Source: Flavobacterium cutihirudinis (lineage in GTDB: Bacteria; Bacteroidota; Bacteroidia; Flavobacteriales; Flavobacteriaceae). Taken from it: a stretch of 64,000 bases of DNA. Of this stretch, positions 2,377 through 54,151 are shown in pieces. How positions within the stretch are numbered: the stretch's first letter is position 1; every line of letters starts with the position of its first letter. The notes beneath the pieces are model-generated. The model did no database searches. It saw nothing but the letters and a program-made list of their open reading frames with translations, and was not told the origin of the DNA. The translations under genes were made by a program, and so were the position numbers. The stretch covers positions 372,001-436,000 of the forward strand of contig NZ_QRDQ01000009.1 in NCBI RefSeq assembly GCF_003385895.1, given 5' to 3'.

Positions 2377-2407
2377 TTTGGTTTTTATTATATTAAAATT
2401 AACTTTG
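2377..2407 (+). promoter_or_regulatory. Bacteroidota-type promoter of the SusC/sulfatase operon
   Basis: TTTG (2377-2380), 19 bases, then TAACTTTG (2400-2407), an exact fit to the TTTG-N19-21-TAnnTTTG consensus of the Bacteroidota primary sigma factor. Transcription would start near 2414, giving a leader of about 480 bases before the SusC start. The same arrangement with the same spacing recurs at 16940-16970, and the following bases (TCTATAGGATTAGTAGAG) are also nearly identical there. Confidence 0.75.
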
Positions 2408-2460
2408 TCTATAGGATTAGTAGAGTTTAAAATAATATTTGAAACTAAAAAAACTATATT

Positions 2461-2547
2461 TTGAAAACAACCGAAAGCATATCGTATTACATTCTTCCTA
2501 AAAAATATACTTATAACACTTTTTGTTATATGTGCTTCTGTTGTTAA
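2461..2547 (+). CDS. Cysteine-rich leader peptide, 28 residues (copy A)
   Basis: A short frame starting with TTG directly after ATT, with an in-frame stop at 2446, so the start is confined to this spot. The 28-residue product ends in NTFCYMCFCC followed by TAA. A second frame of exactly the same length, with the same TTG start and ending in NTFCYMCSCC, lies at 17011-17097 behind the same promoter. The shared residues include PKK and YNTFCYMC.CC, and the N-terminal halves differ freely, as expected if only the cysteine cluster matters. The last two Cys codons and the stop lie in a 7-bp stem (2540-2546 with 2552-2558). I infer a regulatory leader that senses Cys-tRNA supply for the SusC/sulfatase genes. 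A secreted metal-binding peptide is a weaker alternative. Confidence 0.75.
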   Translation: MKTTESISYYILPKKYTYNTFCYMCFCC

Positions 2548-2732
2548 TTCCTAACAACCATATTCGTTAAAAGGAAAACATTTTTACGTCCTTAAACGAA
2601 ATCTAACTATCACCACCAGATTACTTTTATTGAAATACAACAATCTCTTTGAGGCAAAATTTGCATTAAAAAGGTTTTTGAATATACCACTATTTTAAAA
2701 AGAAAATAATTAATAACTAAAACAAAACTAAA

Positions 2733-2765
2733 ATGAAAATAATGCAAAGCTGTTGCTGTAAATAA
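2733..2765 (+). CDS. Micro-ORF MKIMQSCCCK, second cysteine leader
   Basis: ATG at 2733 opens a ten-codon frame, MKIMQSCCCK, with three consecutive Cys codons close to the stop. Its TAA ends five bases before a perfect 10-bp hairpin at 2771-2796. Run-of-codons next to a stop next to a hairpin is the layout of amino-acid attenuators such as the his and trp leaders. It is the second cysteine-rich frame in the same untranslated leader. No exact counterpart is present in copy B. A frame this short could arise by chance; the CCC run and the hairpin are what support it. Confidence 0.5.
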   Translation: MKIMQSCCCK

Positions 2766-2770
2766 AAAAA

Positions 2771-2871
2771 GCCATTTCTGCGGCAACAGAAATGGCGAGG
2801 CTTAAAGAACATTTATCACTAAATCAAGGGAACACTTAGAGAGCTGAAAATTCAGCACTCAGGGCGCCTTG
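2771..2871 (+). promoter_or_regulatory. Structured RNA leader before SusC with a block shared with the encapsulin operon
   Basis: A perfect 10-bp stem (GCCATTTCTG, 2771-2780, with 2787-2796; loop CGGCAA) is followed by TTAAAGAACATTTATCA (2802-2818). The loop side of the stem (CATTTCTGCGGCAACAGA) and the 17-base tail recur at 17238-17282 upstream of the second sulfur operon. A further fold follows: GCTGAA/TTCAGC at 2843-2856 inside CAAGG/CCTTG at 2825-2871. There is no T-run, so this is not an ordinary terminator. It may be an attenuator or antiterminator, or control ribosome access. I do not recognise a known riboswitch class. Confidence 0.6.
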
Positions 2872-2897
2872 TTAATTACTTAAACCAGTACAAAGAA

Positions 2898-5800
2898 ATG
2901 AAAAAAAATTTAAAGATATACTTAGTATTATTTCTCCTGCTGCTAACGGCGGGAATTAATGCCCAAAATACAACCCCGCTTATTCAGTCGAAACTAGATG
3001 GAACAGTTGTGGATGCTATTACAAATCAACCAATTATTGGTGCATCTGTAGTTATTAAAGGTACAACTCACGGCGTACAAACCGATGCCGAAGGAAAATT
3101 TTACTTTCAAACCGGACAAAAATTTCCATATACTTTAATTGTAAGCTATATAGGTTACAAAAAAGCGGAAGTAATTGTTGACAAAAATCCGGTTATTATT
3201 AATCTAAAAGAAGAACGTCAGGAACTGGATGAATTAGTTGTTGTGGGCTACGGATCACAGAAACGAAAAGACATTACAGGTTCTGTTGCTTCTGTTCCAA
3301 AAGCGAATCTTTCTCAGGTAACTTCATCGGCAGACAATCTCCTTCGAGGCGCGATTCCGGGTGTGGTAGTTACACAAAGTTCAGGCCGTCCGGGAGCTTC
3401 ATCAAGCGTACGTATTAGAGGAGGAAATTCGATTACTGCTGGTAACGAGCCACTTTATGTACTAGATGGAGTATTAATTTATAATGATAATAATAACAGT
3501 ACGGCTGGTGTTACTTATGGAGGTCAGACAGTCAATGTTTTATCAACGATTAATCCGGCTGATATCGAATCGATAGAGGTTCTTAAAGATGCTTCGGCAA
3601 CTGCTATTTATGGTTCGCGTGGTGCAAATGGTGTTGTTATTATTACGACTAAAAAAGGTACCAAAGGTCAGGACAACATTTCGTATCAGGGGTATTTTGG
3701 ATTCCAGAATATTTCTAAAAAACTAAATGTAATGAATGCCAGCCAATGGGCAAGTTTACGAAATGATGTTCAGGCAAGTATTGGTCAGGCTCCATCTTTT
3801 ACACAAGAACAAATTGAAGCTTTCAAAACTTCAGGAAGTTTTGATTGGCAGTCGGCCGCATTTGTAAAAGCTGCACCGGTTCAAAATCATCAATTGTCTT
3901 TTTCCGGTGGTGATGAAAGATCACGATATGCAATTTCAGCAGGATATTTTGATCAGGATGGAATTGTTTTGGGAACCGATTTTAAACGAATTTCACTTCG
4001 TGCCAATTACGAAAGAAATTATTCTCAGAATTTCAAATTTGGCGTGAATGCCAATTATAGCAACTCGATCTCAAATGGCGTTGGTACAAATGGCGGCGCT
4101 GCAGCAGGACGAAATCCAAATCCACTTGTGAGTGTATTGTTAACTGCTCCGGTAGTTCCTATTAAAAATGATGATGGAAGTTATAATGTAACGAACAATC
4201 CTTATGCAACTTCCGTTAATGGTTATATTCCTAATCCAATCAACGATTTGGAAAATACAACCAATGAAACCAAAATCAACAGAATCCTGACCAGTTTATT
4301 TGGTGAATATAAAATAACCAAAAAACTAACAGCAAAAGTTGCGGTAAGCGGTGACGTATTAAATACAAAACAAAATTATTATGCGCCAGCAAATACAACA
4401 ACCGGCGCAGGAACAAAAGGTTTGGCGTCAGTTGGGGACAGACTTGTAAGTTCTGTTTTAAATGAAAACACACTGAACTACAATACTAATTTTGGGAATG
4501 ATCACAAATTCTCAGCTTTGGGAGGTTATACATTGCAATACACTAAAGGTGAAGTTGTAAATGCAGGAGCGCAGACTTTTGTAAATGACGCCAATACATA
4601 CAATGCTCTTCAGGATGGTATTGCGGTAAAACCATATAGTGATGCTTTTGAAAGTGTATTAAAATCATGGCTTGCAAGAGTAAACTATTCTTATAAAGGA
4701 AAATACAACTTCACACTTTCTGGTCGTGCCGATGGATCTTCCAGATTTGGATCTGAATCACTTTGGGGTTATTTCCCATCTGCAGGATTCTCCTGGAATA
4801 TTACCGATGAAGATTTTGCAAACAACATTAAAGACTTAACAGAAGCCAAATTGAGAATTACGGCTGGTACAACCGGAAACCAGGAAATTGGAAATTATCT
4901 TTCTCTTGCCTCAATGGGTTCTGTAAACTATTCTTTTGGTGGCACAACCTATACAGGTCTTGCTCCTACCCGATTGGCAAATCCGGATTTGAAATGGGAA
5001 AAAACAAATCAGTATAACATTGGTTTGGATTTGTCATTATTGGACAGAAAAATCAACTTTGTTTTTGATGTTTATTACAAAAAAACAAACGATTTATTAA
5101 TCAACGTTCCTGTTCCGTTGACATCAGGATATGCAACAGTACTTCAAAACATTGGAGGTGTTGAAAATAAAGGTCTTGAAATTGGTTTGATTACTGAAAA
5201 CATTAAAACCGACAATTTCTCATGGAATTCTAATTTCGTTTTTTCTACCAACAAAAATAAAGTTGTAGCGATAGGAAACGGTGTAGAGCAATTTTTTCCT
5301 GTAGTACCAAACGGATCATTATTGCAACAACAACCTGTTATCGTTAAAGTAGGATTACCGCTAGGAACTTTCTGGGGATACAAAACAAACGGTATTTTCC
5401 AGACTCAGGAAGAAGTAAATACACAACCTAAAATCAACAGTTTGGCCAATACAAAAGTGGGAGACAGAAAATATGTTGATACCAATGGTGATGGTGTAAT
5501 TACGGCACTTGACAAAGGAAATTTGGGCACTTCTCAGCCAAAATTTGTTGGAAGTTTCAGCAACACGATTTCGTATAATGATTTTGATTTGAACTTCTCT
5601 TTTCAGGGTGCTTATGGCGGAAAAATATTCAATGCTTTAAATCAGCAATTAGAAATTTCTACTCTTGGAACCAATGCGGCAACGACTCTTGAAGATCGTT
5701 GGACACCAACAAATCCAAGTAACGAAATTCCGAGAGCCTCAAGTTCTCCTTTAGGAATTGTATCAGAACGCTATGTTGAAGATGCTTCATTTTTGAGATT

Positions 5801-6029
5801 AAAACTAATCACATTAGGCTATACTTTACCTAAAAGCATTTCTAAAAAAATAGGGGCAAAAAGCGTGAAATTCTACGTTTCTGCAGAGAACTTAATTACA
5901 TGGACAAAATACACTGGTTATGATCCAGAGGTAAGTTCCTATGAACAAAACAACTTATATCCGGGAATTGATTTTGGTTCGTATCCAAACTCCAAAACCT
6001 TTATTTCTGGTCTGAATGTAACTTTCTAA
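2898..6029 (+). CDS. SusC-family TonB-dependent outer-membrane transporter
   Basis: A 1043-residue outer-membrane protein with a signal peptide ending near GINAQN. It has a carboxypeptidase-regulatory-like domain (about 33-105), a TonB-box-like segment DELVVVGYGSQ (about 110-120), a plug domain with DIESIEVLKDASATAIYGSRGANGV, split here for length as IESIEVLKDAS and YGSRGANGV, and a long beta-barrel ending in an aromatic residue (NVTF), as in barrel proteins. With SusD it would import an oligomeric or amphipathic ligand. Two sulfatases follow, so the ligand is probably a sulfate ester, though sequence alone does not show which. It is the first full-length gene behind the cysteine-rich leaders. 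Confidence 0.93.
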   Translation: MKKNLKIYLVLFLLLLTAGINAQNTTPLIQSKLDGTVVDAITNQPIIGASVVIKGTTHGVQTDAEGKFYFQTGQKFPYTLIVSYIGYKKAEVIVDKNPVIINLKEERQELDELVVVGYGSQKRKDITGSVASVPKANLSQVTSSADNLLRGAIPGVVVTQSSGRPGASSSVRIRGGNSITAGNEPLYVLDGVLIYNDNNNSTAGVTYGGQTVNVLSTINPADIESIEVLKDASATAIYGSRGANGVVIITTKKGTKGQDNISYQGYFGFQNISKKLNVMNASQWASLRNDVQASIGQAPSFTQEQIEAFKTSGSFDWQSAAFVKAAPVQNHQLSFSGGDERSRYAISAGYFDQDGIVLGTDFKRISLRANYERNYSQNFKFGVNANYSNSISNGVGTNGGAAAGRNPNPLVSVLLTAPVVPIKNDDGSYNVTNNPYATSVNGYIPNPINDLENTTNETKINRILTSLFGEYKITKKLTAKVAVSGDVLNTKQNYYAPANTTTGAGTKGLASVGDRLVSSVLNENTLNYNTNFGNDHKFSALGGYTLQYTKGEVVNAGAQTFVNDANTYNALQDGIAVKPYSDAFESVLKSWLARVNYSYKGKYNFTLSGRADGSSRFGSESLWGYFPSAGFSWNITDEDFANNIKDLTEAKLRITAGTTGNQEIGNYLSLASMGSVNYSFGGTTYTGLAPTRLANPDLKWEKTNQYNIGLDLSLLDRKINFVFDVYYKKTNDLLINVPVPLTSGYATVLQNIGGVENKGLEIGLITENIKTDNFSWNSNFVFSTNKNKVVAIGNGVEQFFPVVPNGSLLQQQPVIVKVGLPLGTFWGYKTNGIFQTQEEVNTQPKINSLANTKVGDRKYVDTNGDGVITALDKGNLGTSQPKFVGSFSNTISYNDFDLNFSFQGAYGGKIFNALNQQLEISTLGTNAATTLEDRWTPTNPSNEIPRASSSPLGIVSERYVEDASFLRLKLITLGYTLPKSISKKIGAKSVKFYVSAENLITWTKYTGYDPEVSSYEQNNLYPGIDFGSYPNSKTFISGLNVTF

Positions 6030-6045
6030 GTAAAAAAAATATAAA

Positions 6046-7518
6046 ATGAAAAAGAGTATTATAATATTACTATTAAGTGCCGGCCTGTTGGCATCGTGCA
6101 CCGATTTAGAGGTAACTCCAACCTCTTTTGTAACCGAAGACAATTATTTTAAAACACAAGATGACGCTGTTGCAAGTGTTACAGCCGTTTATGCATCATT
6201 AAGTTTAGATCCGGGTGAGCAAAGTTTATTTGGAAGAAATTTATATTTCTTAACCGATATGGCTTCAGATTATGCTGCGGCAGGAGTTTCGGCAACAAAT
6301 CCACAAGTTAGAGCTTTGAGCAGTTTAACTCATGATGCAACTTCAGATCGTGTTCAGGTAGCGTGGAGACAAATTTATGCCGGAATAAACAGAGCAAACG
6401 TTTCTATCGATAACGTTCCTAAAGTAAGCGGAAACGAAGTTGTAAAAACAAGATTAATCAACGAGGCGAAATTCATCAGAGCGTTATTGTATTTTCAGGC
6501 AGTTCGATTATGGGGTGGTGTTCCAATTGTTTTACATGAACCAACTTCTATCGAATTAGAAAGTCTGAAAGCCAAAAGAGCCACAGTTGAAGAAGTTTAC
6601 ACTCAGATTATTTCCGATTTAAAAGATGCTGAAAACCTGCCTGCAACTTATCCTGCAACAGATGCCGGACGTGCAACGGCGGGTGCTGCAAAAGCAATTT
6701 TGACCAAAGTTTATCTGACAAGAAAAGACTGGCCAAATGCCATTGCAAAAGCTAAAGAAGTGATTAATGGCGGATATGGTTATGCCTTATTTGAAAATTT
6801 CCAGGACATTTTTACAAAAACAAAAAAGAACGGAAAAGAGCATATTTTCTCAGTACAGTTTGAGCCAAATCAGGCTGGAAACGGTTCTTCCGGAAGTACT
6901 TTTCAGGCAACTTCTTTTACAGGATTTACAGCTACTGAACCTGCAGATATAATCTCTGATGTTGCATTGTTCTATGACATTTATGCCGCAGGAGATGTAC
7001 GTAGAGATGTAAGTTATGCGAAACAATTGCCAAACCCTGCAACTGGAACGCTATATACTTTTCCGAAACCAATTTTCAAAAAATATCTGGACTTAACGAA
7101 TCTGGCTACTCCAGGAAACGTGGCGATCAATTTTCCTGTTATTCGTTATGCTGACATTTTATTGTCTTTGGCGGAAGCCATAAATGAACAAAGTGGGCCA
7201 ACTGCAGAAGCTTACGAATTAATCAACCAAGTAAGAAGAAGAGCATTTGCAAAACCAATTGCAACGCCGGATGCAGATGTTGATTTAACTGGATTAACGC
7301 AAACTACTTTTAGAGCTGCAATTCAGGAAGAACGTAAAAAAGAATTTGTTCAGGAAGGACAAAGATGGTTTGATTTAGTAAGATGGGGAACTTTGGTTAC
7401 GGAAGTGAAAAAAGTAACAGCAAAAAATTCGGTTTCAGAGAAAAACAATCTGTACCCAATTCCACAAAGTGAACGAAATATTAATCCGGATGGTTTACCT
7501 CAAAATCCCGGATATTAA
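6046..7518 (+). CDS. SusD/RagB-family outer-membrane lipoprotein
   Basis: A 490-residue protein with a lipobox (GLLASC, Cys18), so an outer-membrane lipoprotein. It has the SusD/RagB pattern: helical repeats (NEAKFIRALLYFQAVRLWG near 140-155), a C-terminal segment with IRYADILLSLAEAINE, EERKKEFVQEGQRWFDLVRWG, and an ending in LYPIPQSERNINP. It lies 16 bases after SusC and would be the surface lid of that transporter. The ligand is unknown; the sulfatases downstream point to a sulfated compound. Confidence 0.92.
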   Translation: MKKSIIILLLSAGLLASCTDLEVTPTSFVTEDNYFKTQDDAVASVTAVYASLSLDPGEQSLFGRNLYFLTDMASDYAAAGVSATNPQVRALSSLTHDATSDRVQVAWRQIYAGINRANVSIDNVPKVSGNEVVKTRLINEAKFIRALLYFQAVRLWGGVPIVLHEPTSIELESLKAKRATVEEVYTQIISDLKDAENLPATYPATDAGRATAGAAKAILTKVYLTRKDWPNAIAKAKEVINGGYGYALFENFQDIFTKTKKNGKEHIFSVQFEPNQAGNGSSGSTFQATSFTGFTATEPADIISDVALFYDIYAAGDVRRDVSYAKQLPNPATGTLYTFPKPIFKKYLDLTNLATPGNVAINFPVIRYADILLSLAEAINEQSGPTAEAYELINQVRRRAFAKPIATPDADVDLTGLTQTTFRAAIQEERKKEFVQEGQRWFDLVRWGTLVTEVKKVTAKNSVSEKNNLYPIPQSERNINPDGLPQNPGY

Positions 7519-7545
7519 AACTAACCTCAACTAAAACTATAAATT

Positions 7546-9447
7546 ATGAAAGAATATAAAAATAGCATATCAATCAAAAGTCCTAAAACAGGGCTTTTGA
7601 TTACTGCAATTTTACTTGCACAATTTGGTTTTTCACAAACTAAACCAGAAGAATTCAAAGGCGTCATTGGCAAAACCTTAGCCGATTCCAAAGAATATTG
7701 GCCAGAACCTGTCACAGCTCCAAAAGGTGCTCCAAATGTGGTTTGGATTATTTTGGATGACGTAGGTTATGGAGCAACGAGTGCTTTTGGAGGTTTAATC
7801 GAAACTCCTGTTTTAGAAAGTCTTGCCAATAACGGTTTACGTTATACCAATTTTCATACAACTGCGATTTGTGCTCCTACCCGTTCGGCTTTATTGACTG
7901 GAAGTAATTCTCATAAAGTGCATGTTGGCGGATTTTCTCATACAATTATGTCTGCAGGATTTCCGGGTTGGGACGGAAGATTGCCTTCAAAAAACGGAAC
8001 TGTGGCCGAGATTTTACGTGATAAAGGATATAATACTTTTGGTGTTGGAAAATACGGAATTACGCCAGATGAAGAAGCGACTGATGCCGGACCATTCGAC
8101 CGCTGGCCGACTGGAAAAGGATTTGAACATTTCTTTGGATTCTTAGGTTCAGCGACAGATCAATATAAACCCGATTTAATCGAAGATCAAGCGCACGTTA
8201 CTCCTGATGGACGCCATTTGAGCGAGCAAATTACAGATAAAGCGATCAGTTATATTGCAAGACAGCAAAAAGCCGCGCCGGGAAAACCATTCTTTTTATA
8301 CTATTCTCCGGCCGCTGTTCATGCACCTCATCAGGTTGCCCAAAAATGGAGCGATCCATACAAAGGAAAATTTGATGATGGTTGGGACGCTTACCGCGAA
8401 AAAACCATTGCTAATCAGAAAAAATTAGGAGTTATTCCTTCAAATGCTGTTTTGCCAGAACGTAATCCGCTTATTGCAGATTGGAAAAAATTAACTCCGG
8501 ATCAAAAGAAAGTGTATTCCAAATTTATGGAAGTATACGCCGGATATCTTACGTACACGGATTATGAAATTGGAAGATTGGTTAATTATTTAAAAGAAAT
8601 CAATCAGCTGGAAAATACGGTTGTTTTTGTTTTAATTGGAGACAATGGAGCCAGCAAAGAAGGAACATTACAAGGCGCTGTCAACAGACAAACGTATGTT
8701 GTTGGCGAAACTGACGAAACGGTTTTTCAAAACAATTTAAAACGAATTGGCGAAATTGGAACACCTGAAACCTATACTAATTATCCTTTAGGTTGGGCAC
8801 AAGCAACAAATGTTCCTTTTAAAGATTGGAAACAAGATGCTAACTCTGAAGGTGGAACTCACAATCCGTTAATTGTTTATTATCCAAAAGGAATTAAAAC
8901 TCCGGGAATAAGAACGCAATACAGTCACGTAATTGATATTTTACCAACAACGCTGGATATTTTAGGTGTTAAAGCGCCAGAATCTATCAGAGAAATTAAG
9001 CAAGATACTATTCAGGGTTATTCTTTTTACAATTCGTTGAATGACGCAAAAGCAGTTTCAAATCATAAAATACAGCATTATTACATTTTTGGAGCCAGAG
9101 CAATTTATAGTGATGGATGGAAAGCCGCTGCAGCACATCATCCAAATTCAATTGAAGCTAAAGAAGCTTTGAGCGATCCGAAAAAAGCAGGTTTATTAAA
9201 AGCTGATTTTGACAAAGATGTTTGGGAATTGTACAACATCAACGAAGATTTTAATGAGCAGAAAGATTTGGCTAAAAAGTACCCTGAAAAGCTGGCTGAA
9301 TTAAAAAAACTATTTGATGAGCAAGCCAAGAAAAACAACTTGTATCCTTTAATAGACTGGTCGGATGTTTATTTGAGAAAGATTCATAAAACTCCAGCTA
9401 CAGAAGGAAAATCTGCTCAAGAACTATTGACCAAAGCAAATAAATAA
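7546..9447 (+). CDS. S1-type (formylglycine) arylsulfatase, first of a tandem pair
   Basis: A 633-residue sulfatase with a signal peptide ending near FGFSQ, so periplasmic or exported. The motif CAPTRSALLTG (Cys109) is the C-x-P-x-R signature in which Cys is converted to formylglycine. Metal-binding residues are visible as LDDVGYG (about 70-76) and IGDNGAS in the C-terminal half. It releases sulfate from organic sulfate esters. Length and motifs resemble the Pseudomonas arylsulfatase (PAS) branch of the S1 family. No formylglycine-generating or anaerobic maturase gene is in the window, so maturation must be encoded elsewhere. The next gene is a close paralogue 12 bases downstream. Confidence 0.92.
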   Translation: MKEYKNSISIKSPKTGLLITAILLAQFGFSQTKPEEFKGVIGKTLADSKEYWPEPVTAPKGAPNVVWIILDDVGYGATSAFGGLIETPVLESLANNGLRYTNFHTTAICAPTRSALLTGSNSHKVHVGGFSHTIMSAGFPGWDGRLPSKNGTVAEILRDKGYNTFGVGKYGITPDEEATDAGPFDRWPTGKGFEHFFGFLGSATDQYKPDLIEDQAHVTPDGRHLSEQITDKAISYIARQQKAAPGKPFFLYYSPAAVHAPHQVAQKWSDPYKGKFDDGWDAYREKTIANQKKLGVIPSNAVLPERNPLIADWKKLTPDQKKVYSKFMEVYAGYLTYTDYEIGRLVNYLKEINQLENTVVFVLIGDNGASKEGTLQGAVNRQTYVVGETDETVFQNNLKRIGEIGTPETYTNYPLGWAQATNVPFKDWKQDANSEGGTHNPLIVYYPKGIKTPGIRTQYSHVIDILPTTLDILGVKAPESIREIKQDTIQGYSFYNSLNDAKAVSNHKIQHYYIFGARAIYSDGWKAAAAHHPNSIEAKEALSDPKKAGLLKADFDKDVWELYNINEDFNEQKDLAKKYPEKLAELKKLFDEQAKKNNLYPLIDWSDVYLRKIHKTPATEGKSAQELLTKANK

Positions 9448-9459
9448 AAAATAAAAACT

Positions 9460-11391
9460 ATGAAAAATTTTAAATACAACAGTTTAATCAAAAGTCCTAA
9501 AAAAGGGCTTCTGATTACAGCGCTCCTAGTTGCACAATTAGGAAATGCACAAGATAAACCAGAGGAATTTAAAGGAGTTATTGGTAAAACTTTAGCCGAT
9601 TCTAAAGAATATTGGCCAGAGCCGGTAAAAGCTCCTAAAGGCGCACCAAACGTTATTTGGATTTTATTAGATGACGTAGGATTTGGAGCTTCAAGTGCTT
9701 TTGGAGGTTTAATCAGTACACCAACTTTTGATCAATTGGCAAATAATGGTTTGCGTTACACCAACTTTCATACAACAGCTATTTGCGCGCCAACTCGTGC
9801 GGCTTTATTGACTGGAAGAAATTCTGGAAAAGTTCACGTTAGTGGGTTTTCACACACGATTTTATCTGCTGGTTTCCCAGGTTGGGACGGAAGAATTCCT
9901 TCTGATAAAGGAACAATCGCAGAGATTTTACGTGAAAACGGATACAACACTTTTGCCGTTGGAAAATATGGTGTAACGCCAGATGAAGAGGCTACAGATG
10001 CTGGTCCGTTTGACAGATGGCCAACCGGAAAAGGTTTTGATCATTTCTACGGATTCTTAGGTTCTCAGACCGATCAGTACAACCCTGATTTAGTTGAAGA
10101 TCAAGTTCACGTTACACCAGACGGACGCCATTTGAGCGAATTGATTACAGATAAGGCAATCAGCTATATCCAAAAACAGCAAAAAGCAGCTCCGGGAAAA
10201 CCATTTTTCTTGTATTATGCACCGGGCGCAGCACACGCACCTCATCAAGTTGCTACAAAATGGAGCGATCCTTACAGAGGAAAATTTGACAAAGGCTGGG
10301 ATGCTTACCGCGAAGAAGTCATTGCGAACCAAAAGAAATTGGGTGTAATTCCGGCTAATGCAGTTTTACCAGAACGCAATCCGTTAATTACAGATTGGAA
10401 AAAACTTTCTCCAGATCAGAAAAAAGTATATGCAAGATTCATGGAAGTTTACGCTGGATTCTTGACGTATACTGATTATGAAGTAGGAAGAGTGGTGAAT
10501 TATTTGAAAGAAAGCGGTCAACTTGACAACACTGTAATTTTCGTAGCAATTGGCGATAATGGAGCAAGTAAAGAAGGAACTTCTGAAGGAACAATCAACC
10601 AAAGTTTGTTTTCTCAAGGCGTATCTGACGAAGAAAATTTAAAGACCAACTTAGCGAATATCGACGAAATTGGAACTGCAAAAGGTCTAAATACAAATTA
10701 TCCTTTAGGATGGGCTCAAGCGACAAATGTCCCATTCAAAAACTGGAAACAAGATGCGCAATCTGAAGGCGGAACGCATAATCCGCTGATTGTTTTTTAT
10801 CCTAACGGAATTAAAGACAAAGGCGGTATCAGAAATCAATACAGCCACGTTATAGATTTGCTTCCAACTACATTGGATATTACCGGAATTAAAGCACCGG
10901 AATATATTAAAGGTATTAAACAGGACAAAATTCAAGGTTCTTCTTTATATGCTTCTTTGGATAACGCTAAAGCGGAGTCATTACACAAAGTCCAATACTA
11001 TTACATTTTTGGAAACAGAGCAATCTACAAAGACGGTTGGAAAGCCGGAGCAGCGCATGCAAATCCGTTTACTTCACTAAAAACTGCCGGTAATCAGACA
11101 CCTGCACCAAGCAATTTTGATACTGACGTTTGGGAATTATACAACTTAAACGAAGATTTTAACGAACGAAATAATTTAGCTGCAAAATATCCTGAAAAAT
11201 TAGCCGAGCTAAAAAAACTGTTTGATGAACAAGCTAAAGAAAACAACGTTTATCCGTTAATTGACTGGAACGATGTTATAACCAGAAAAATACATAATAC
11301 AACTGCTGATAAAGGTAAAAGTCTTCAGGACTTAATCAAGCAAGTGACTAAACCGGGAGAAGGTACAACCACTGCTGGAGGTAGCCATTAA
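9460..11391 (+). CDS. S1-type (formylglycine) arylsulfatase, second of a tandem pair
   Basis: A 643-residue close paralogue of the preceding gene, from the shared start (IKSPKKGLLITALLVAQLG) through CAPTRAALLTG (Cys109 again) to the C-terminal LFDEQAKENNVYPLIDW. It has a signal peptide and the same metal-binding motifs (LDDVGFG, IGDNGAS). The C-terminus adds a short Gly/Thr-rich tail. The pair comes from tandem duplication followed by divergence, mostly in segments outside the active site, so the two may split sulfate-ester substrates. It sits in the same operon and is expected to be exported. Confidence 0.92.
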   Translation: MKNFKYNSLIKSPKKGLLITALLVAQLGNAQDKPEEFKGVIGKTLADSKEYWPEPVKAPKGAPNVIWILLDDVGFGASSAFGGLISTPTFDQLANNGLRYTNFHTTAICAPTRAALLTGRNSGKVHVSGFSHTILSAGFPGWDGRIPSDKGTIAEILRENGYNTFAVGKYGVTPDEEATDAGPFDRWPTGKGFDHFYGFLGSQTDQYNPDLVEDQVHVTPDGRHLSELITDKAISYIQKQQKAAPGKPFFLYYAPGAAHAPHQVATKWSDPYRGKFDKGWDAYREEVIANQKKLGVIPANAVLPERNPLITDWKKLSPDQKKVYARFMEVYAGFLTYTDYEVGRVVNYLKESGQLDNTVIFVAIGDNGASKEGTSEGTINQSLFSQGVSDEENLKTNLANIDEIGTAKGLNTNYPLGWAQATNVPFKNWKQDAQSEGGTHNPLIVFYPNGIKDKGGIRNQYSHVIDLLPTTLDITGIKAPEYIKGIKQDKIQGSSLYASLDNAKAESLHKVQYYYIFGNRAIYKDGWKAGAAHANPFTSLKTAGNQTPAPSNFDTDVWELYNLNEDFNERNNLAAKYPEKLAELKKLFDEQAKENNVYPLIDWNDVITRKIHNTTADKGKSLQDLIKQVTKPGEGTTTAGGSH

Positions 11392-11405
11392 GATAATGAT
11401 TTTCA

Positions 11406-11438
11406 AAACCTACAAGGTTTCTAAAACCTTGTAGGTTT
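11406..11438. repeat. Palindromic repeat, CCTACAAGG family
   Basis: Perfect 15-bp arms (11406-11420 and 11424-11438) built around CCTACAAGG, with a 3-base loop. Two more members of the family occur at 15373-15462. It could slow RNA polymerase after the sulfatase pair, but no T-run follows. Confidence 0.75.
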
Positions 11439-11611
11439 CATTAATAAGAAATAGAAATACATTTTGATTTAGAATTCACTAAAATCACAATAAATAACAA
11501 AAAAAGAACAATTTAAACACTACTAATTCTATAGAATTAAAAGTTTTTAATTTAAATTTACACTTTATAACTTTTTGATTTTCAACAATACACAATAAAA
11601 AATAAGAAATC

Positions 11612-11731
11612 ATGAAACGAGTAGATTACGAAATTATAGGAAAAAAAATCATCGTGGGCGCGATTGTTTTTTTAGTTCCGCTAGTGATATTGGCGGGAGG
11701 TTTAGCATTAATTAATCAATTTTTAAAATAA
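11612..11731 (+). CDS. Small membrane protein, 39 residues
   Basis: ATG at 11612 opens a 39-residue frame: charged start (MKRVDYEIIGKK), one hydrophobic helix (IIVGAIVFLVPLVILAGG), and the end LALINQFLK. It is followed after 6 bases by the hydroxylase-like gene. Both start codons sit in the same context, AATAAGAAATCATG, which suggests matched translation. The composition, position and shared start context support a real single-span inner-membrane microprotein, perhaps a partner of the membrane-bound hydroxylase. I do not recognise a family. An AT-rich gap of about 200 bases separates it from the sulfatases, so it may have its own promoter. Confidence 0.65.
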   Translation: MKRVDYEIIGKKIIVGAIVFLVPLVILAGGLALINQFLK

Positions 11732-11737
11732 GAAATC

Positions 11738-12796
11738 ATGGCAATAGTACAAAGAGAAAAACTGACAAGGGACTTACTTATAAGCCTTTTTATTTATTCT
11801 TTGCCTGTAGTGGCAATTTTCCTTTATTTCAAATTAAGCAATAATTTGGTAAGCGAATCACACATTTCATTACCCGCTTTTTTAGAATTTTCAAAACCTG
11901 CTTTTGAACATATAAGAACTTGGGGGTTAACCGTTTTTATGCTAGTTTTAGGCGTAATCGAATTTACTGCAGGTTTATACGATGACGAATGGACTGGACA
12001 AGAACGCAAAGTTGATATTATTTGTTTCTTGGCGCCAAAATTGCTTTTGCCTCCAGTAATTGCTTTTTTCAGCTTGACTGCTTTACCTTATTTGATCCCG
12101 AATTTGGCAAATTCACTTTCTTGGGTTCCTTTCTGGGGCGGATTTTTCCTAATCGCAATTGCCGATGATTTGACACAATATTGGTACCACAGATTGCACC
12201 ATCAAGTTCCGTTTTTATGGCGTTTTCACAGAACACATCATTCGGCTCCATACATGGGAATGGCGATGGCTTCAAGACAAAACTTTATTTATACGGTTTT
12301 CTTTTCTCAAATTTATTTGACTGCAACGCTAACTTATTTAGGTTTAGGATTACCGGCTTTATTTGTTTTGGTTATCAAAAGTTTCATCACATTGGGCGCG
12401 CATTCAAGTATTGCTTGGGACAAACCATTTTACAAATACAGAGTTTTACACCCAATTGCTTGGGTTTTAGAAAGATTGATTTCTACTCCTGCAACGCATC
12501 ACGCGCATCACGCAGATACGAGCGGAGACGGAGTTGGGCACTTCAAAGGAAACTTTGGAAACATGTTTTTCATTTGGGATGTCATTTTCGGAACGGGATT
12601 AATCACTCGTAAATTCCCAGAATCATACGGAACAAAATCATACAAACAAGAAGAATGGTACGCACAGTTTTTATGGCCAATTTTCAAATCTAAAAAAGAA
12701 GGAAGTCCACTTGCGGATGGAGTTTTGTCACTTCCGTTAAAAGCAAAAACAGTTGTTGCCGAAGAAACTCCTACTCCAGTATTAGAGCAAGTTTAA
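11738..12796 (+). CDS. Fatty acid hydroxylase / sterol desaturase superfamily membrane protein
   Basis: A 352-residue integral-membrane protein with the histidine clusters that bind the di-iron centre of this superfamily: HRLHH (151-155), HRTHH (164-168) and THHAHH near 255. Several hydrophobic helices surround them (about 15-32, 62-80, 95-122, 185-215). Family members hydroxylate or desaturate fatty acyl chains or sterols, or cleave ether lipids, using O2. The substrate cannot be read here. Its place among sulfatases suggests work on a lipid- or alkyl-type sulfate ester, for example freeing or oxidising the alkyl chain; that is inference. Confidence 0.85.
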   Translation: MAIVQREKLTRDLLISLFIYSLPVVAIFLYFKLSNNLVSESHISLPAFLEFSKPAFEHIRTWGLTVFMLVLGVIEFTAGLYDDEWTGQERKVDIICFLAPKLLLPPVIAFFSLTALPYLIPNLANSLSWVPFWGGFFLIAIADDLTQYWYHRLHHQVPFLWRFHRTHHSAPYMGMAMASRQNFIYTVFFSQIYLTATLTYLGLGLPALFVLVIKSFITLGAHSSIAWDKPFYKYRVLHPIAWVLERLISTPATHHAHHADTSGDGVGHFKGNFGNMFFIWDVIFGTGLITRKFPESYGTKSYKQEEWYAQFLWPIFKSKKEGSPLADGVLSLPLKAKTVVAEETPTPVLEQV

Positions 12797-12807
12797 TCTT
12801 AAAGAAG

Positions 12808-13524
12808 ATGAAAAACACCAGTTTAAAAAATAGTTTAACAGCGATTGCATTTTTCATTGCAATTGCTGTTTTTTCGCAAAACAAGAGCCAAAATACATTG
12901 CCATTAGATGTTTTTTACAGCAAAATTCAAGCGGAGAAAAATCCGCAGATTATTGATGCTCGAGGTCCTGAAGAATTTGCATTAAACCATCTTCTAGGCG
13001 CAGTAAATTTTAATCTGGAATCGAAAGATTATGCTGAAAAAATAGCTAAATTAGACAAAAACAGACCTGTTTTTACGTATTCAATTGGAGCCGGAAGAAG
13101 TGTTTGGCTGGCAGAAGATTTGCTAAAAAAAGGTTTCAAAGAAGCATATAGTTTAGAAGGCGGAATCGCGAACTGGATTGGAAACGGGAAACCATTTTTT
13201 GCTAATTCAAAAAGCAAATTGACTTTAGCCGAATACAACAAAATCATTTCTGATAATAAAACCGTTTTGGTTGATATTGGTTCTGTTTACTGCGGTGCCT
13301 GCAAAAAAGTAAAACCAGTTCTTGAAACGATAAAAGCACAATACGGAAGCAATCTGAAAATAGTTGAAATCGATCTGGAAGACAACACGCAAGTCATCGC
13401 CGATTTGAAAACAATAAAAGTTTTCCCAACTTTAATTTTATATCAAAATGGAAAAATCATTCTTAAAAAAGAAGGTTTTGAAAATTTGAAAAATGAGATT
13501 GATGTGGCGTTGGCTTCTAAATGA
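12808..13524 (+). CDS. Exported rhodanese-like/thioredoxin fusion with a Ser in place of the rhodanese Cys
   Basis: A 238-residue protein with a signal peptide (cut near AVFSQ), so periplasmic. Domain 1 (about 32-130) is rhodanese-like: IIDARGPEEF and YSIGAGRSVWLAEDL, then YSLEGGIANW. The active-site loop normally begins with Cys (YCxxGxRS); here the codon is TCA, Ser92, so sulfur transfer by that residue is not expected. Domain 2 (about 135-238) is thioredoxin-like with CGAC (Cys162, Cys165) instead of CGPC and FPTLILYQNGK with the cis-Pro. It follows the hydroxylase gene by 11 bases. A periplasmic disulfide reductase with a binding-only rhodanese domain fits best. Confidence 0.85.
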   Translation: MKNTSLKNSLTAIAFFIAIAVFSQNKSQNTLPLDVFYSKIQAEKNPQIIDARGPEEFALNHLLGAVNFNLESKDYAEKIAKLDKNRPVFTYSIGAGRSVWLAEDLLKKGFKEAYSLEGGIANWIGNGKPFFANSKSKLTLAEYNKIISDNKTVLVDIGSVYCGACKKVKPVLETIKAQYGSNLKIVEIDLEDNTQVIADLKTIKVFPTLILYQNGKIILKKEGFENLKNEIDVALASK

Positions 13525-13560
13525 TAATTTAATTTTCAAAAGAAGGTTTAACCGCATTTT

Positions 13561-13660
13561 TGTCATTTCGAGGAACGAGAAATCACACACGAAACTCTAT
13601 ACAGATAGTCGCCATTCTTTGTCGAATTACTAGTGTGATTTCTCGTTCCTCGAAATGACA
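13561..13660. repeat. Long perfect inverted repeat (28-bp arms)
   Basis: TGTCATTTCGAGGAACGAGA and the following 8 bases (13561-13588) return as an exact reverse complement at 13633-13660, with 44 bases between. No gene or transposase is linked. It looks like a non-coding palindromic element of the kind scattered in flavobacterial genomes; as RNA it would form a long stable hairpin between the rhodanese-thioredoxin and third sulfatase genes. Confidence 0.85.
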
Positions 13661-13684
13661 AATAATACGTGCACAAAATGAGAA

Positions 13685-13704
13685 AGACGCACTGCTGTGC
13701 GTCT
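13685..13704. repeat. Short palindromic repeat, AGACGCAC family, copy 1
   Basis: AGACGCAC-TGCT-GTGCGTCT followed by CTACAA. Two more copies are at 43594-43613 and 45845-45864, the last with one arm mismatch. All three lie between genes. Confidence 0.8.
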
Positions 13705-13743
13705 CTACAATAAAACCTTTGTCTAAAACCAACTTACCAAAAC

Positions 13744-15360
13744 ATGGCAACTTATAAAAAAATAACCAAGATTATTATACCCATTTTAATTGTACTTTTC
13801 CTTTTAGCAGTATTTCTTTTCTGGCCAATAAACACAGACGGAACTCTAATAAAGCCAAATGAAAAACTAGCCGAAGGTAAAGCTGCATTTTTAGCACAAA
13901 AAGATACCTCAACTTCTCAAAAAAAGCCAAATATCATTATTCTCCTTGCTGATGATTTAGGGAAATATGATATTTCTCTTTACGGAGGAAAAGATGTTCC
14001 AACGCCTCAGATTGATTCTTTGGCAGCTTCGGGAGTAACTTTTACAGATGGTTACGTATCGGCTTCGATTTGTTCGCCATCGCGCGCGGGGTTGCTTACA
14101 GGACGTTATCAAGAACGTTTTGGACATGAATATCAACCGGGTGATCGTTATCCAAAAAACAATTTAGAATATTACGCTTTCAAATATTTAATCAACACCA
14201 ATAATTGGCGATTAAATAATAAAATTAATTATCCAAATGAAGCATCTATAGCTACACAAGGTTTGCCACAATCTGAAATTACTTTTGCCGATTTAGCCAA
14301 AAAGCAAGGTTACAGCACCGTAATTATCGGGAAATGGCATTTGGGCCACAACAAAGGATTTTTTCCTTTAGACCGAGGTTTCGATTATCATTACGGATTT
14401 TATCAGGCCTTTTCGCTTTACACGCCCGAAGATGATAATCCAGATATTATCAATCATCATCATAAAGATTTTACTGATAAAATGATTTGGGGAAATGGTC
14501 GTGTCGGAATTGGGCAAATTCGCCGCGACACTACCATTATTCATGATAAAGCCTATTTAACGGAAACCTTTGCTGGTGAAGCAGAAGCTTTTATCGACAA
14601 AAATAAAAACAAACCTTTTTTGCTTTATGTTCCGTTTAATGCTCCACATACGCCGTTTCAAGTTCGTAAAAAATATTACGATCGTTTTCCGAATGTAAAA
14701 GACGAAAACAAACGTGTATATTATGCAATGATCAGCGCTCTTGATGATGCAATTGGAAGAATCCGAGCTAAAGTCAAAAAAGAAGGTTTAGAAGAAAATA
14801 CCTTAATCATTTTTGCCAGCGATAACGGTGGTGCCGATTATACTTTTGCAACGACAAATGCGCCATTAAAAGGAGGTAAATTTTCGCATTTTGAAGGCGG
14901 AATAAATGTTCCGTTTGCACTTTCGTGGAAGGGAAAAATAAAACCGCACACTGTTTATAAAACTCCTGTAAGTTCTCTTGATATTTTCAGTACGATTGCT
15001 TCTGTCACGGGTTCTGGTTTGCCTAAAGATCGAGTTTATGATGGCGTTGATTTGATTGATGTGGTCAATAACAATAAAGAAGCGCATAAAGATTTGTACT
15101 GGCGTTCTGGCGATGCAAAAGCCATCAGAAGTGGAAATTGGAAATTAATCATAAGCGGCAAAACACATGAAACCTGGCTTTATGATTTATCAAAAGACAA
15201 ATCGGAAACTACGGATCTTGCTTCAAAAAATCCAGAAAAAGTAAAAGAACTGCAAACTTCTTTACAAAATTGGGAAAAAGGATTAATTAAACCGCTTTGG
15301 CCTAATTTGACTTACTATGAATTCGATTTTGGAAAGCAAAAATACTTTGTGGATTTGTAA
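13744..15360 (+). CDS. S1-type sulfatase, membrane-anchored
   Basis: A 538-residue sulfatase. Residues 9-28 (KIIIPILIVLFLLAVFLFWP without a cleavage site) form a signal anchor, so the enzyme is probably tethered to the inner membrane facing the periplasm. The motif CSPSRAGLLTG has Cys110 for formylglycine. Metal ligands appear as LLADDLG and FASDNGG, and GKWHLGH carries the conserved Lys and His. It is distant from the tandem pair at 7546-11391 and closer in outline to glycan or choline-type S1 sulfatases; the substrate is not deduced. A repeat-filled gap separates it from the upstream genes, and the YeiH gene follows. Confidence 0.9.
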   Translation: MATYKKITKIIIPILIVLFLLAVFLFWPINTDGTLIKPNEKLAEGKAAFLAQKDTSTSQKKPNIIILLADDLGKYDISLYGGKDVPTPQIDSLAASGVTFTDGYVSASICSPSRAGLLTGRYQERFGHEYQPGDRYPKNNLEYYAFKYLINTNNWRLNNKINYPNEASIATQGLPQSEITFADLAKKQGYSTVIIGKWHLGHNKGFFPLDRGFDYHYGFYQAFSLYTPEDDNPDIINHHHKDFTDKMIWGNGRVGIGQIRRDTTIIHDKAYLTETFAGEAEAFIDKNKNKPFLLYVPFNAPHTPFQVRKKYYDRFPNVKDENKRVYYAMISALDDAIGRIRAKVKKEGLEENTLIIFASDNGGADYTFATTNAPLKGGKFSHFEGGINVPFALSWKGKIKPHTVYKTPVSSLDIFSTIASVTGSGLPKDRVYDGVDLIDVVNNNKEAHKDLYWRSGDAKAIRSGNWKLIISGKTHETWLYDLSKDKSETTDLASKNPEKVKELQTSLQNWEKGLIKPLWPNLTYYEFDFGKQKYFVDL

Positions 15361-15372
15361 TAGTAATCCAAG

Positions 15373-15462
15373 TCCTGCAAGGTTTTCAAAACCTTGTAGG
15401 TCTTTTACATTTATACTTTTTTAAATAATTAATACCTACAAGGTTTTGAAAACCTTGCAGGA
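15373..15462. repeat. Two CCTACAAGG palindromes arranged as a 29-bp inverted repeat
   Basis: Each unit (15374-15400, 15435-15461) is itself a near-palindrome of the CCTACAAGG/CCTTGTAGG type, and the two are exact reverse complements of each other, extended to 29 bp (15373-15401 and 15434-15462). The transcript could fold as two small hairpins or as one large one. The right end stops 12 bases before the YeiH start codon, so folding could affect its translation. Confidence 0.8.
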
Positions 15463-15474
15463 AATCAAAAACAA

Positions 15475-16737
15475 ATGTCAACTCAAATTAAACAATTTAA
15501 TATTCACGAAGATTGGACAGTAGTAATTCTAGGCTTCATAATTATCGGAATTTCGCTTTTTATATTTCTTCCAGAAGTTCCCGTTTTCAGTTGGTCAAAT
15601 AGTAATGATTTAAAAACGAAAGTATTTGATTTTGCAAACCTAAAAATACTTCTGATTCAGTTTTTATATCTGATTTCTATTGGAGCGTTCGGCGCTTTCT
15701 TAATTGGAAAATCAGTTAAATATTTCTTGTTGACTTTTCCGACATTGTATCTCTTAACTTTGATTGCTTTACTTCTGGCAGGAAATTCGGCTATAAAATC
15801 CATCAATTTAGAAGCTGTAATTTTCAGTTTGATAATTGGTTTGGCAATTGGGAATTTCTTCAAACTTCCAGAGTGGTTTCGTTCAGCACTTTCAACAGAA
15901 GTTTTCGTCAAAATCGGATTGGTTTTATTGGGAACTAGCGTGATTTTCTCTGATATTTTAAAGGCAGGTTCATTAGGCTTAATTCAGGCTTTGGTTGTTG
16001 TTTTGTCTGTCTGGTATTTTGCCTTTTGGCTTTGCCGAAAATTAAAAGTTGATGATGAGTTAACTATGATGATTTCTAGTGCCGTTTCCATCTGTGGTGT
16101 TTCTGCGGCTATTGCAACCTCAGGCGCGATTAAAGGCGATTCTAAAAAACTGTCTTACGTTATTTCAATTGTTTTGGTAACTGCCATTCCAATGATGATT
16201 TTTATGCCCATAATTGCAAAATATTTCAACTTTCCCGAAGAAGTCACTGGCGCGTGGTTAGGCGGCAGTATCGACACTTCGGGAGCAGTTGTGGCTTCTG
16301 GAAGTTTGGTTGGTGAAACGGCTTTAAAAATCAGTACAATCGTAAAATTTTCACAGAATGTTTTATTAGGATTAGCGGCTTTTGCAATATCCGTTTATTG
16401 GACTTACACGCACAACAAATCGGCAGAAGCTGTAGAATCAAAACCTACTTTAAGTGTGATTTGGGAACGTTTTCCAAAATTTGTTATTGGTTTTATTCTG
16501 GCCTCTCTCCTATTTTCTTTTTTTATTACTTCGGAAGTTCGAGATTCGGTAAAAGACAGTTTGAAAAATTTGCAAGGCATTTGGTTTGCTTTGGCTTTTA
16601 CAAGTATTGGTTTAGAAACAAATTTTAAAGATTTGCTTGCTAATAATAGTCGTAAACCTTTGTATGTTTTTTTAATTGCGCAATTATTCAATGTTATTGT
16701 GACTTTGATTATTGCTTATTTTCTGTTTGGGAAGTAG
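15475..16737 (+). CDS. YeiH-family (UPF0324) putative sulfate/sulfite exporter
   Basis: A 420-residue polytopic membrane protein of the YeiH/UPF0324 family, with about ten helices. Family-typical segments: LIIGLAIGNFFKLP, VKIGLVLLGTSVIFSDIL, SAVSICGVSAAIATSGAI, and GAWLGGSIDTSGAVVASGSL. Members are annotated as sulfate exporters and are often regulated with sulfur or taurine metabolism; the transported ion is not settled. Next to four sulfatases, export of excess sulfate or sulfite is a sensible job. It is 114 bases after the sulfatase with a palindromic element between. Confidence 0.85.
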   Translation: MSTQIKQFNIHEDWTVVILGFIIIGISLFIFLPEVPVFSWSNSNDLKTKVFDFANLKILLIQFLYLISIGAFGAFLIGKSVKYFLLTFPTLYLLTLIALLLAGNSAIKSINLEAVIFSLIIGLAIGNFFKLPEWFRSALSTEVFVKIGLVLLGTSVIFSDILKAGSLGLIQALVVVLSVWYFAFWLCRKLKVDDELTMMISSAVSICGVSAAIATSGAIKGDSKKLSYVISIVLVTAIPMMIFMPIIAKYFNFPEEVTGAWLGGSIDTSGAVVASGSLVGETALKISTIVKFSQNVLLGLAAFAISVYWTYTHNKSAEAVESKPTLSVIWERFPKFVIGFILASLLFSFFITSEVRDSVKDSLKNLQGIWFALAFTSIGLETNFKDLLANNSRKPLYVFLIAQLFNVIVTLIIAYFLFGK

Positions 16738-16740
16738 CGG

Positions 16741-16900
16741 GCGAGCAATTCTCTCGCAAAGTCGCAAAAACGCAAAGTTTAAGCGCAATATTGTCATTAC
16801 TAAACTTTAACAAAGTCCTTCCTAATTCTTTTATGCCAAGAATTTCACAAATTTCCACAAATTTAATTCGTGTTAATTCGTGTAATTCGTGGCAAATCAT
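16741..16900. repeat. Intergenic low-order repeats (CGCAAAG and AATTCGTG types)
   Basis: After YeiH come iterated motifs: TCGCAAAGTCGCAAAAACGCAAAG (given as CGCAAAG repeats), then AATTCGTGTTAATTCGTGTAA. Such short iterations are common in gaps of flavobacterial genomes. No gene is supported here; small frames on either strand are made of the repeats. The region ends before the promoter at 16940. Confidence 0.55.
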
Positions 16901-16939
16901 TTCTCTTTACTTCTTTTTTCAAAAAAAAATCAAGATTAA

Positions 16940-16970
16940 TTTGGTTTTTACAATATTAAATATAACTTTG
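16940..16970 (+). promoter_or_regulatory. Bacteroidota-type promoter of the sulfatase/encapsulin operon
   Basis: TTTG (16940-16943), 19 bases, TAACTTTG (16963-16970), the same elements and spacing as at 2377-2407. The bases after it (TCTATAGAATTAGTAGAG) differ from copy A at one position. Transcription would start near 16977, about 345 bases before the sulfatase start codon. Confidence 0.75.
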
Positions 16971-17010
16971 TCTATAGAATTAGTAGAGTTTAATATTTAA
17001 AACTTACATT

Positions 17011-17097
17011 TTGAAAACAATAGCACACAGAACGTCTTTCATTTTTCCTAAAAAACACGACTATAACACTTTTTGTTATATGTGTAGCTGTTGTTAA
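17011..17097 (+). CDS. Cysteine-rich leader peptide, 28 residues (copy B)
   Basis: TTG start after ATT, as in copy A at 2461, and again 28 residues to the TAA. The product ends in NTFCYMCSCC. Aligned without gaps to copy A, the C-terminal half is almost identical (PKK, then YNTFCYMC.CC) while the N-terminal half differs, and the codons in the matching half also vary (TGC/TGT, TTC/AGC). Promoter, start context and distance from promoter to start also match. Conservation of reading frame and length across two loci argues that it is translated. I infer that slow decoding of the clustered Cys codons under cysteine shortage raises expression of the operon. Confidence 0.75.
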   Translation: MKTIAHRTSFIFPKKHDYNTFCYMCSCC

Positions 17098-17237
17098 TTC
17101 CCACATTCGTTTGTCATGATTTTATTAAATTTTAAAATCGCAAACAAGCCTCTATTTTACTCCAATTTCATTTACGACATAGTGTGCAGTTCGTTTTGTA
17201 CGAAGCTGTGTCATAATGTTATACCTTTATAAAAAGT

Positions 17238-17282
17238 CATTTCTGCGGCAACAGAGATTAACCTATTAAAGAACATTTATCA
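17238..17282 (+). promoter_or_regulatory. Conserved RNA leader block, copy B
   Basis: CATTTCTGCGGCAACAGA (17238-17255) and TTAAAGAACATTTATCA (17266-17282) match the block at 2773-2818 exactly in both parts; only the spacer differs. The stem here is shorter (TTTCTG with CAGAGA). It lies 39 bases before the sulfatase start codon. The region between this block and the leader peptide (17098-17237) is not conserved with copy A, but can fold (GACATAG near 17176 with CTGTGTC near 17207). Confidence 0.6.
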
Positions 17283-23747: not shown

Positions 23748-24033
23748 ATTTTTTATTTTATTCGAAATAAGCAAATATTTCACAAATTGTTAAAAAAAAG
23801 TCATTTTTTCACTTAATTTATGTTAATTCACTTCATTAATTACAGTAAACAAAATATTTTAATTAGAAATTAATCAATTTATTACATTATTTTTTACAAA
23901 TTTAGGCTTCCAAAACCAAAAATGTTACAAATAATACAAAAATTAGCCAAAATGTTATATTTTATGTTAAAAAGAAGGTTTTACTTAACATTAATTTATG
24001 ATATTTGAGAAAACTAATTTAAACATACAGGAG
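23748..24033. other. AT-rich gap before the second SusC gene
   Basis: Very AT-rich leader between the terminator and SusC. No cysteine-rich leader, no GCGGCAA hairpin block and no clear TTTG-N19-TAnnTTTG pair was found, so this SusC gene is not in the cysteine-leader group. The promoter was not located. Confidence 0.5.
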
Positions 24034-54086: not shown

Positions 54087-54151
54087 TTTTTATTATTCAA
54101 ACTAGTAGAAAATACCTTCTTTTCAGTTCTTATAAAAAAGAAACTTCTCGC

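Follow-up and report, generated by a model that had tools for sequence, protein, structure and literature searches.

Twin 28-codon leader frames with cysteine codons at the stop suggest cysteine-codon attenuation of sulfate-ester scavenging in Flavobacterium

Two operons of a Flavobacterium cutihirudinis genome, one for SusC, SusD and sulfatases and the other for a sulfatase and cysteine synthesis, are each headed by a very short open reading frame (ORF) that ends in a cluster of cysteine codons, raising the question of whether such frames are translated leaders that sense cysteine. The window (the whole stretch of DNA that was analysed, 64,000 nucleotides [nt] long) comes from contig 3 of a genome of 4.9 Mb, and the relatives that share the leader are named Flavobacterium. 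Both frames lie on the plus strand exactly as the original prediction had placed them: leader peptide 1 (2461..2547; 28 codons from a TTG start, (TTG)KTTESISYYILPKKYTYNTFCYMCFCC and stop, ending MCFCC) and leader peptide 2 (17011..17097; 28 codons from a TTG start, (TTG)KTIAHRTSFIFPKKHDYNTFCYMCSCC and stop, ending MCSCC), with M-C-x-C-C-stop as their common tail. We propose that these leaders serve cysteine-codon attenuation of sulfate-ester scavenging, in which the terminal M-C-x-C-C-stop codons would gauge charged Cys-tRNA; from comparison of the sequences we put the probability of this at about two in three (0.68).

The two loci are also alike upstream of the frames, as had been predicted. 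TTTG-N19-TAACTTTG is present at both (plus strand, 2377..2407 for operon 1 and 16940..16970 for operon 2), followed by the stretch CTATARRATTAGTAGAGTTTAA. The TTTG-N19-TAACTTTG part is unremarkable, because TTTG-N19-TAnnTTTG is what we take to be the ordinary housekeeping promoter of Bacteroidetes. Directly after the promoter comes a 20-nt motif, CTATARRATTAGTAGAGTTT, present as CTATAGGATTAGTAGAGTTT at 2409..2428 in operon 1 and as CTATAGAATTAGTAGAGTTT at 16972..16991 in operon 2 (both plus strand) and probably the site of an Rrf2-type regulator. It has 7 sites at two or fewer mismatches in the 4.9-Mb genome (0 for the reversed control), including a third copy in the window with one mismatch (11515..11534, minus strand) beside which no Cys leader was seen. 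The N-terminal halves of the two peptides, expected to differ, do so between the two loci of the window, whereas LKTTESISYYILPKK, exact or in a close variant, is common to most of the family.

To judge the frames free of selection on their tail, leaders were collected by the upstream motif alone, which was matched in 67 of 249 genomes of the genus; the sites considered are part of the matches listed, picked by motif variant and not at random. The 111 distinct motif sites include 47 in front of a susC, sulfatase or cysE-like gene, 9 in front of metY and 1 in front of metK, while the remaining 54 have another gene, or none, in that direction within reach. A leader is present at 35 of the 47 susC, sulfatase and cysE sites, with exactly 28 codons in 30 of the 35 (overall range, 26 to 29) and TTG (26), GTG (8) or ATG (1) as its start. 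Counted back from the stop, Met stands at −5 in 34 of these leaders and Cys at −4 in 33, at −2 in 33 and at −1 in 34. At least three Cys fall within the last eight codons in 34/35; an ORF of that kind arose in 53 of 5,600 dinucleotide shuffles of 56 motif-headed 5′ regions. Six of the 35 form a divergent class (LKTIKNTSFLIKQGSLSFDTLSRMCCCC and stop, ending RMCCCC or RMCCSC) in which start, length and tail are kept and little else is shared with the leaders of the window.

Leaders selected by their tail agree with this picture. That set comprised 128 rows, with the motif matched in 112; 122 had enough flank, 11 of them without a classifiable gene, and the starts of 3 of 111 were unmatched by the search expression, leaving 108 located leaders. 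The distance from start to stop was 87 nt in 106 of the 108 and 84 nt in the other 2. In 100 distinct leaders, codon 1 counted back from the stop was TTG in 76, GTG in 22, ATT in 2 and ATG in none, the two ATT cases being 27-codon leaders with a TTG start one codon later. An A occupies position −3 in 108/108 located leaders; this base is reported to favour initiation in F. johnsoniae, in a study that includes ribosome profiling (PMC6847099). Leaderless initiation in its mycobacterial form was not found here: the start codon lies 39 to 53 nt downstream of the motif start where measured, and the motif directly follows the promoter. The leader frame in front of the SusC, sulfatase and CysE-like genes of Flavobacterium is conserved and looks translated, with the Cys codons at the stop as its most constant feature.

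Part of the frame is at the same time an RNA structure. A stem-loop spans codons 17 to 25 of leader 1 (2509..2533, plus strand; arms 2509-2518 and 2524-2533) and recurs in identical register in leader 2 (17059..17083, plus strand). Ahead of the Met codon, the 35 leaders share a single pairing register (sum −18, counted from the A of that codon), with at least four consecutive pairs in 33/35 and a mean run of 7.4, compared with 4.8 in the next best register. With one of the 35 leaders excluded from pair counts for a shifted Met, 278 of 363 cells were paired in 33 distinct windows around the stem, against a maximum of 266 in 1,000 shuffles, in which kinship is retained. Compensatory changes occur at three stem positions (A-U/U-A, U-A/C-G and A-U/G-C exchanges). 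Cys-22 is TGT and Tyr-23 is TAT in 100/100 tail-selected leaders, which is explained by the stem, while Cys-25 and Cys-28 switch between TGT and TGC. The peptide and the RNA therefore both seem to be under selection. A consensus fold of the susC leader region, carried to 130 nt past the stop, supported this stem-loop only. The leader peptide accordingly overlaps a hairpin of the pause type by its structure, and pausing there is predicted.

Beyond the stop, the SusC operon carries a second Cys mini-ORF overlooked in the original prediction (2733..2765, plus strand; MKIMQSCCCK and stop). In susC leaders this mini-ORF 2 typically reads MKxMQxCCCK and stop, and 73 of 79 such frames end 5 nt short of a conserved hairpin. 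The hairpin in the window, GCCATTTCTG-TTGCCG-CAGAAATGGC (2764..2796), bears T7 on the minus strand and hence the signature of an intrinsic terminator. Read on that strand (window 2796 to 2771) it is a strong one, as it is at 79 of 84 susC loci and at 26 of 27 further ones; its reading as a plus-strand terminator was rejected since the T-run is missing on that side. Operon 2 retains a partly decayed copy of the CATTTCTGCGGCAACAG hairpin (17236..17259), without mini-ORF 2, and a terminator was called there on neither strand. A third reading frame through the hairpin (MARLKEHLSL...) was rejected by eye, its stop and frame not being kept. The hairpin was also matched in two further genera, once ahead of what by eye is a SusC-like gene and once within a coding region. 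The minus-strand terminator within the susC leader perhaps marks an antisense RNA, resembling in this the cis-antisense DonS RNAs, which in the part of the source consulted are 78 to 128 nt long and encoded divergently to susC homologs (PMC7366714). DonS differs in serving mucosal-glycan loci, and no shared antisense promoter was found for the Flavobacterium candidate, TAnnTTTG standing at one common place in only 14 of 103 loci. As a guide to which strand of the hairpin folds, the asymmetry of G-U against A-C was 10 to 18, no clear pointer given that much of the A-C count falls at the end pair.

The two leaders of the window belong to a wider regulon with the DNA-level motif. At metY the motif stands ahead of leaders such as MKTIANNMVMCCQMMQMCIPICCCQK, and 9/9 metY loci have a plus-strand terminator; in the present genome the metY leader reads MKTIARRKMMCCSMMQMCIPTCCCQK and a strong terminator follows. 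In six loci the CCAAAAG at the leader end can pair with the arm CTTTTGG of the terminator, making antitermination at metY plausible on sequence grounds. Before a TonB receptor the motif accompanies a leader ending CMMCMC, with an Rrf2 gene adjoining. The best Rrf2 match of the genome lies in a cluster with cysH and CysN, near which only copies of the motif with four mismatches occur. The motif was also matched in three other genera, twice at unrelated places and once, in a genus of the Flavobacteriaceae, with an Rrf2 gene on one side and cysH on the other. Because motif sites adjoin Rrf2 genes and cysH, an Rrf2-type sulfur regulator is likely to read the motif. Three further arrangements were noted. 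Upstream of the metY leader and on the opposite strand lies an S-adenosylmethionine (SAM)-II riboswitch, with a metK-like gene in that direction by eye (L287, 1201-1307, minus strand). Elsewhere in L287 (5102-5932) metX is preceded in series by a leader with the end ICVCVC, which lacks the motif, by a hairpin that by eye resembles a terminator, by a small ORF and by a SAM riboswitch. In L289 (about 4050-4450) the motif (on the opposite strand) stands before a Glu/Leu-type dehydrogenase gene together with a terminator and two short ORFs rich in Cys and Met (MKNYVLNIIPFMCSLTMCCMFDNAMKWR and MRSNRNTNSMMHCCLMKIPCCTCSYCRFYFTSL).

How such leaders might work can be set out as follows. Transcription would start at the Bacteroidetes promoter, which overlaps an operator where an Rrf2-type regulator probably binds, and a ribosome would initiate at the weak TTG or GTG codon, initiation being kept weak. 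The stem-loop just before codon 24 is probably a hairpin that pauses or synchronises the polymerase and that the arriving ribosome has to melt. As long as cysteine is plentiful, the ribosome would release at the stop, and the bare leader would be lost to Rho-dependent termination or be poorly translated. With Cys-tRNA scarce, it would halt within the last four codons and shield the RNA past the stop, and the stalled ribosome would allow polymerase or later ribosomes to reach the SusCD-sulfatase or the sulfatase-CysE-CysK-encapsulin genes. The SusC operon may test cysteine again through mini-ORF 2 (MKxMQxCCCK). The metY member could convert stalling into a choice of terminator, and the SusC and sulfatase members, having no terminator, would have to act via Rho or translation. 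The more elaborate form of this proposal is a stacked 5′ untranslated region (UTR) of Rrf2-type operator, 28-codon Cys leader, stem-loop, second mini-ORF and antisense RNA, in which a Cys-tRNA gauge sets SusCD/sulfatase scavenging by a terminator-less attenuator of undescribed architecture; we advance it tentatively, as a possibility with the odds somewhat against it. The idea of a cysteine-sensing leader that underlay the original prediction thus stands as far as the conserved and apparently translated frame, the constancy of its Cys codons and the sulfur-acquisition and cysteine genes downstream are concerned, but not in the shape of a classical terminator attenuator.

Conservation in related genomes, which had been named as a check, was borne out within the genus. 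The tail pattern has 35 occurrences in 30 of 249 genus genomes, the present genome included, with none in the reversed control. When 397 genomes of the Flavobacteriaceae were sampled for a slightly shorter form of the tail, 3 had it; all 3 are Flavobacterium, and the other 236 genera sampled had none. A scan of named genomes returned at least 118 stretches with the tail pattern; among 80 listed loci, 75 belong to Flavobacterium or to Flavobacteriaceae of no named genus and 5 lie outside the family, namely 2 in Mucilaginibacter metagenome-assembled genomes (MAGs) and 3 that look like chance. A strain named F. johnsoniae CI04 is among the carriers. The 3 chance-like loci (in Thermoproteota, Bacilli and Theseobacter MAGs) were taken as chance matches, with no recognisable sulfur gene just downstream. 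In the two Mucilaginibacter MAGs (L049 and L093) a 33-codon frame ending CYMCRCC and stop lies between a SAM riboswitch and metX. The regulon motif is absent from these two genomes at up to one mismatch, and Cys codons at the stop were likely put to use there independently.

Several observations weigh against cysteine-codon attenuation as proposed. Within the Flavobacteriaceae the tail is confined to 1 of 237 genera sampled, so part of the constancy of the leader reflects common descent. The hairpin overlaps the frame, and RNA constraint therefore explains another part of the conservation. With pairs of more than 15 differences excluded, the ratio of nonsynonymous to synonymous change (pN/pS) in susC leaders was 0.49 in frame against 0.99 and 0.68 in the other two frames; the frame was not distinctive in sulfatase leaders (0.87 in frame; 0.96 and 0.62 in the others) or in cysE leaders (0.54; 0.58 and 0.79), so that this check, set by the original prediction, favours the reading frame for susC leaders only. 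The motif search gave three reversed-control matches in the 249 genomes. The 12 of 47 sites without leader 1 are a second susC class, in 10 of which a mini-ORF such as MKKRMCCR is kept, and 2 of the 79 second mini-ORFs (MKIMHCPTLS and MKIMHCPILS) have no Cys cluster. A plus-strand intrinsic terminator was found at 0/84 susC, 0/21 sulfatase and 0/8 cysE loci, and the single plus-strand call among 27 further susC loci is the leader stem-loop itself; the readout at SusC, sulfatase and cysE leaders should therefore be Rho-dependent or translational. C exceeds G past the leader, as in a rut-like stretch, at 80/85 susC loci (14/94 in an intergenic control). The enrichment is not specific, being about as high upstream of the promoter (62/78; C/G ratio of 1.97 after susC leaders versus 2.02 upstream of their promoters), and the Rho reading is weak for that reason. 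At metY, 3 of the 9 leaders were unmatched by the folding script, and in the 6 folded the lowest-energy fold retains the terminator in both simulated ribosome states; in the metY leader of L205 the frame is shifted, with LLLPK where others read CCCQK.

The lack of terminators at the susC, sulfatase and cysE loci also suits a translational version of events, in which transcription is unaffected and the stalled ribosome remodels a structured 5′ UTR, freeing a distant start codon, much as polycysteine upstream ORFs exert control in mycobacteria. The susC start is preceded by stretches that look structured and conserved by eye, and mRNA structure tunes initiation in F. johnsoniae, according to the part of the source consulted (PMC6847099). 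Against this, the gene start lies some 160 to 370 nt past the leader stop in most loci, which is far for simple coupling, and the consensus fold, which stops short of the gene start, supports the leader stem-loop only; we regard this version as unlikely, if the most serious of the alternatives. Another alternative is control by the operator only, with an Rrf2-type sulfur regulator acting on these promoters and an RNA stem-loop surrounded by short frames that are relics and go untranslated. Motif sites do adjoin Rrf2 genes and some have no Cys leader (window 11515-11534; L006), but relics would not keep frame length, start codon, the A at −3 and Cys positions, and length, start codon and Cys positions are kept across two divergent classes, which makes this explanation improbable.

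Least probable, by a small step, is that the peptide itself is the sensor, whether as a nascent-chain arrest peptide or as a thiol- or metal-binding peptide with its cysteines in the ribosome. The near-fixed length of 28 codons and the conserved body ILPKKYTYNTFCYM of the main class would fit such a role; in the RMCCCC class that body is almost wholly replaced while the Cys and Met positions stay. The last residues of a nascent peptide are still at the peptidyl-transferase centre, which leaves them hardly any freedom to bind a ligand.

The gene content of both operons was as predicted, with all of their genes on the plus strand. Operon 1 consists of a SusC-type TonB-dependent receptor (2898..6029) with SusD next (6046..7518), both assigned by Pfam scan, and two sulfatases of PF00884 (7546..9447 and 9460..11391). 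A sulfatase heads operon 2 (17321..18976), followed by a CysE/EpsC-like serine O-acetyltransferase (19006..19827; the frame is open from 18889, and the start was set at MNSFYQ by comparison with relatives), the cysteine synthase CysK (19842..20753), a family 2A encapsulin shell (20815..21735), its cysteine desulfurase cargo (21719..23650), a second SusC-like receptor (23998..27018) and a SusD-like protein (27029..28414). No regulon motif was found in the window upstream of the second SusC-like receptor. In Synechococcus, sulfate starvation upregulates an encapsulin with cysteine desulfurase cargo, as reported in the part of the source consulted (PMC8049743). Between the operons lie a rhodanese-thioredoxin protein (12808-13524) and a PF03601 membrane protein (15475-16737), fitting a sulfur island. 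An Rfam scan of the whole window at curated thresholds placed no RNA family over either leader region; five sub-threshold matches for the operon 1 leader were set aside as unconvincing, and two copies of Flavo-1 RNA were found at 54149-54226 and 59047-59122 (plus strand).

Leaders of this general kind have been described elsewhere. Cys-run leaders without a conserved terminator were predicted upstream of sulfur genes in Actinobacteria, with Rho proposed (PMC1262725), and translation attenuation of cysteine genes in Mycobacterium smegmatis is cited in PMC13236596; both sources were consulted in part. The Flavobacterium frames share with these polycysteine upstream ORF attenuators the short ORF, Cys codons clustered at the stop, the position upstream of sulfur and cysteine genes and the lack of a conserved terminator. 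They differ in belonging to Bacteroidota, in their non-AUG start, near-fixed 28 codons and overlapping stem-loop, in the tandem second mini-ORF and in their SusCD/sulfatase scavenging targets. They resemble attenuators of the trp/his type in that regulatory codons lie in a leader peptide overlapped by a hairpin, and the metY member also has the terminator, which the SusC, sulfatase and cysE members lack. In Rho-dependent attenuators of the TnaC type, control is exerted at the stop codon of a leader of 20 to 30 codons without an intrinsic terminator, a likeness that goes with a difference in trigger: ligand-induced arrest in TnaC as against the codon starvation proposed here. Leader-peptide attenuation before amino-acid operons is mentioned in general terms in the F. 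psychrophilum transcriptome (PMC9723704) and leader-like short ORFs in that of Bacteroides thetaiotaomicron (PMC7366714), as far as these sources were consulted. By title and abstract, the open-access literature yielded no description of a cysteine leader, whether from Bacteroidota or from the region ahead of sulfatase/SusCD genes. The kind is therefore known from mycobacteria, while its use on SusCD/sulfatase operons of Bacteroidota and its architecture were not met with in that literature.

SusCD loci are normally read as carbon-acquisition systems under glycan control. Those described here appear to be wired to cysteine status instead; sulfur scavenging would then be uncoupled from carbon use in a group that is common in soil and freshwater. 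They would also provide a testable example of attenuation by leader peptide in a phylum that lacks Shine-Dalgarno initiation, with terminator-bearing and terminator-less leaders side by side in one genome under one motif. The leader itself may offer a sequence handle by which sulfur-dedicated SusCD loci can be spotted.

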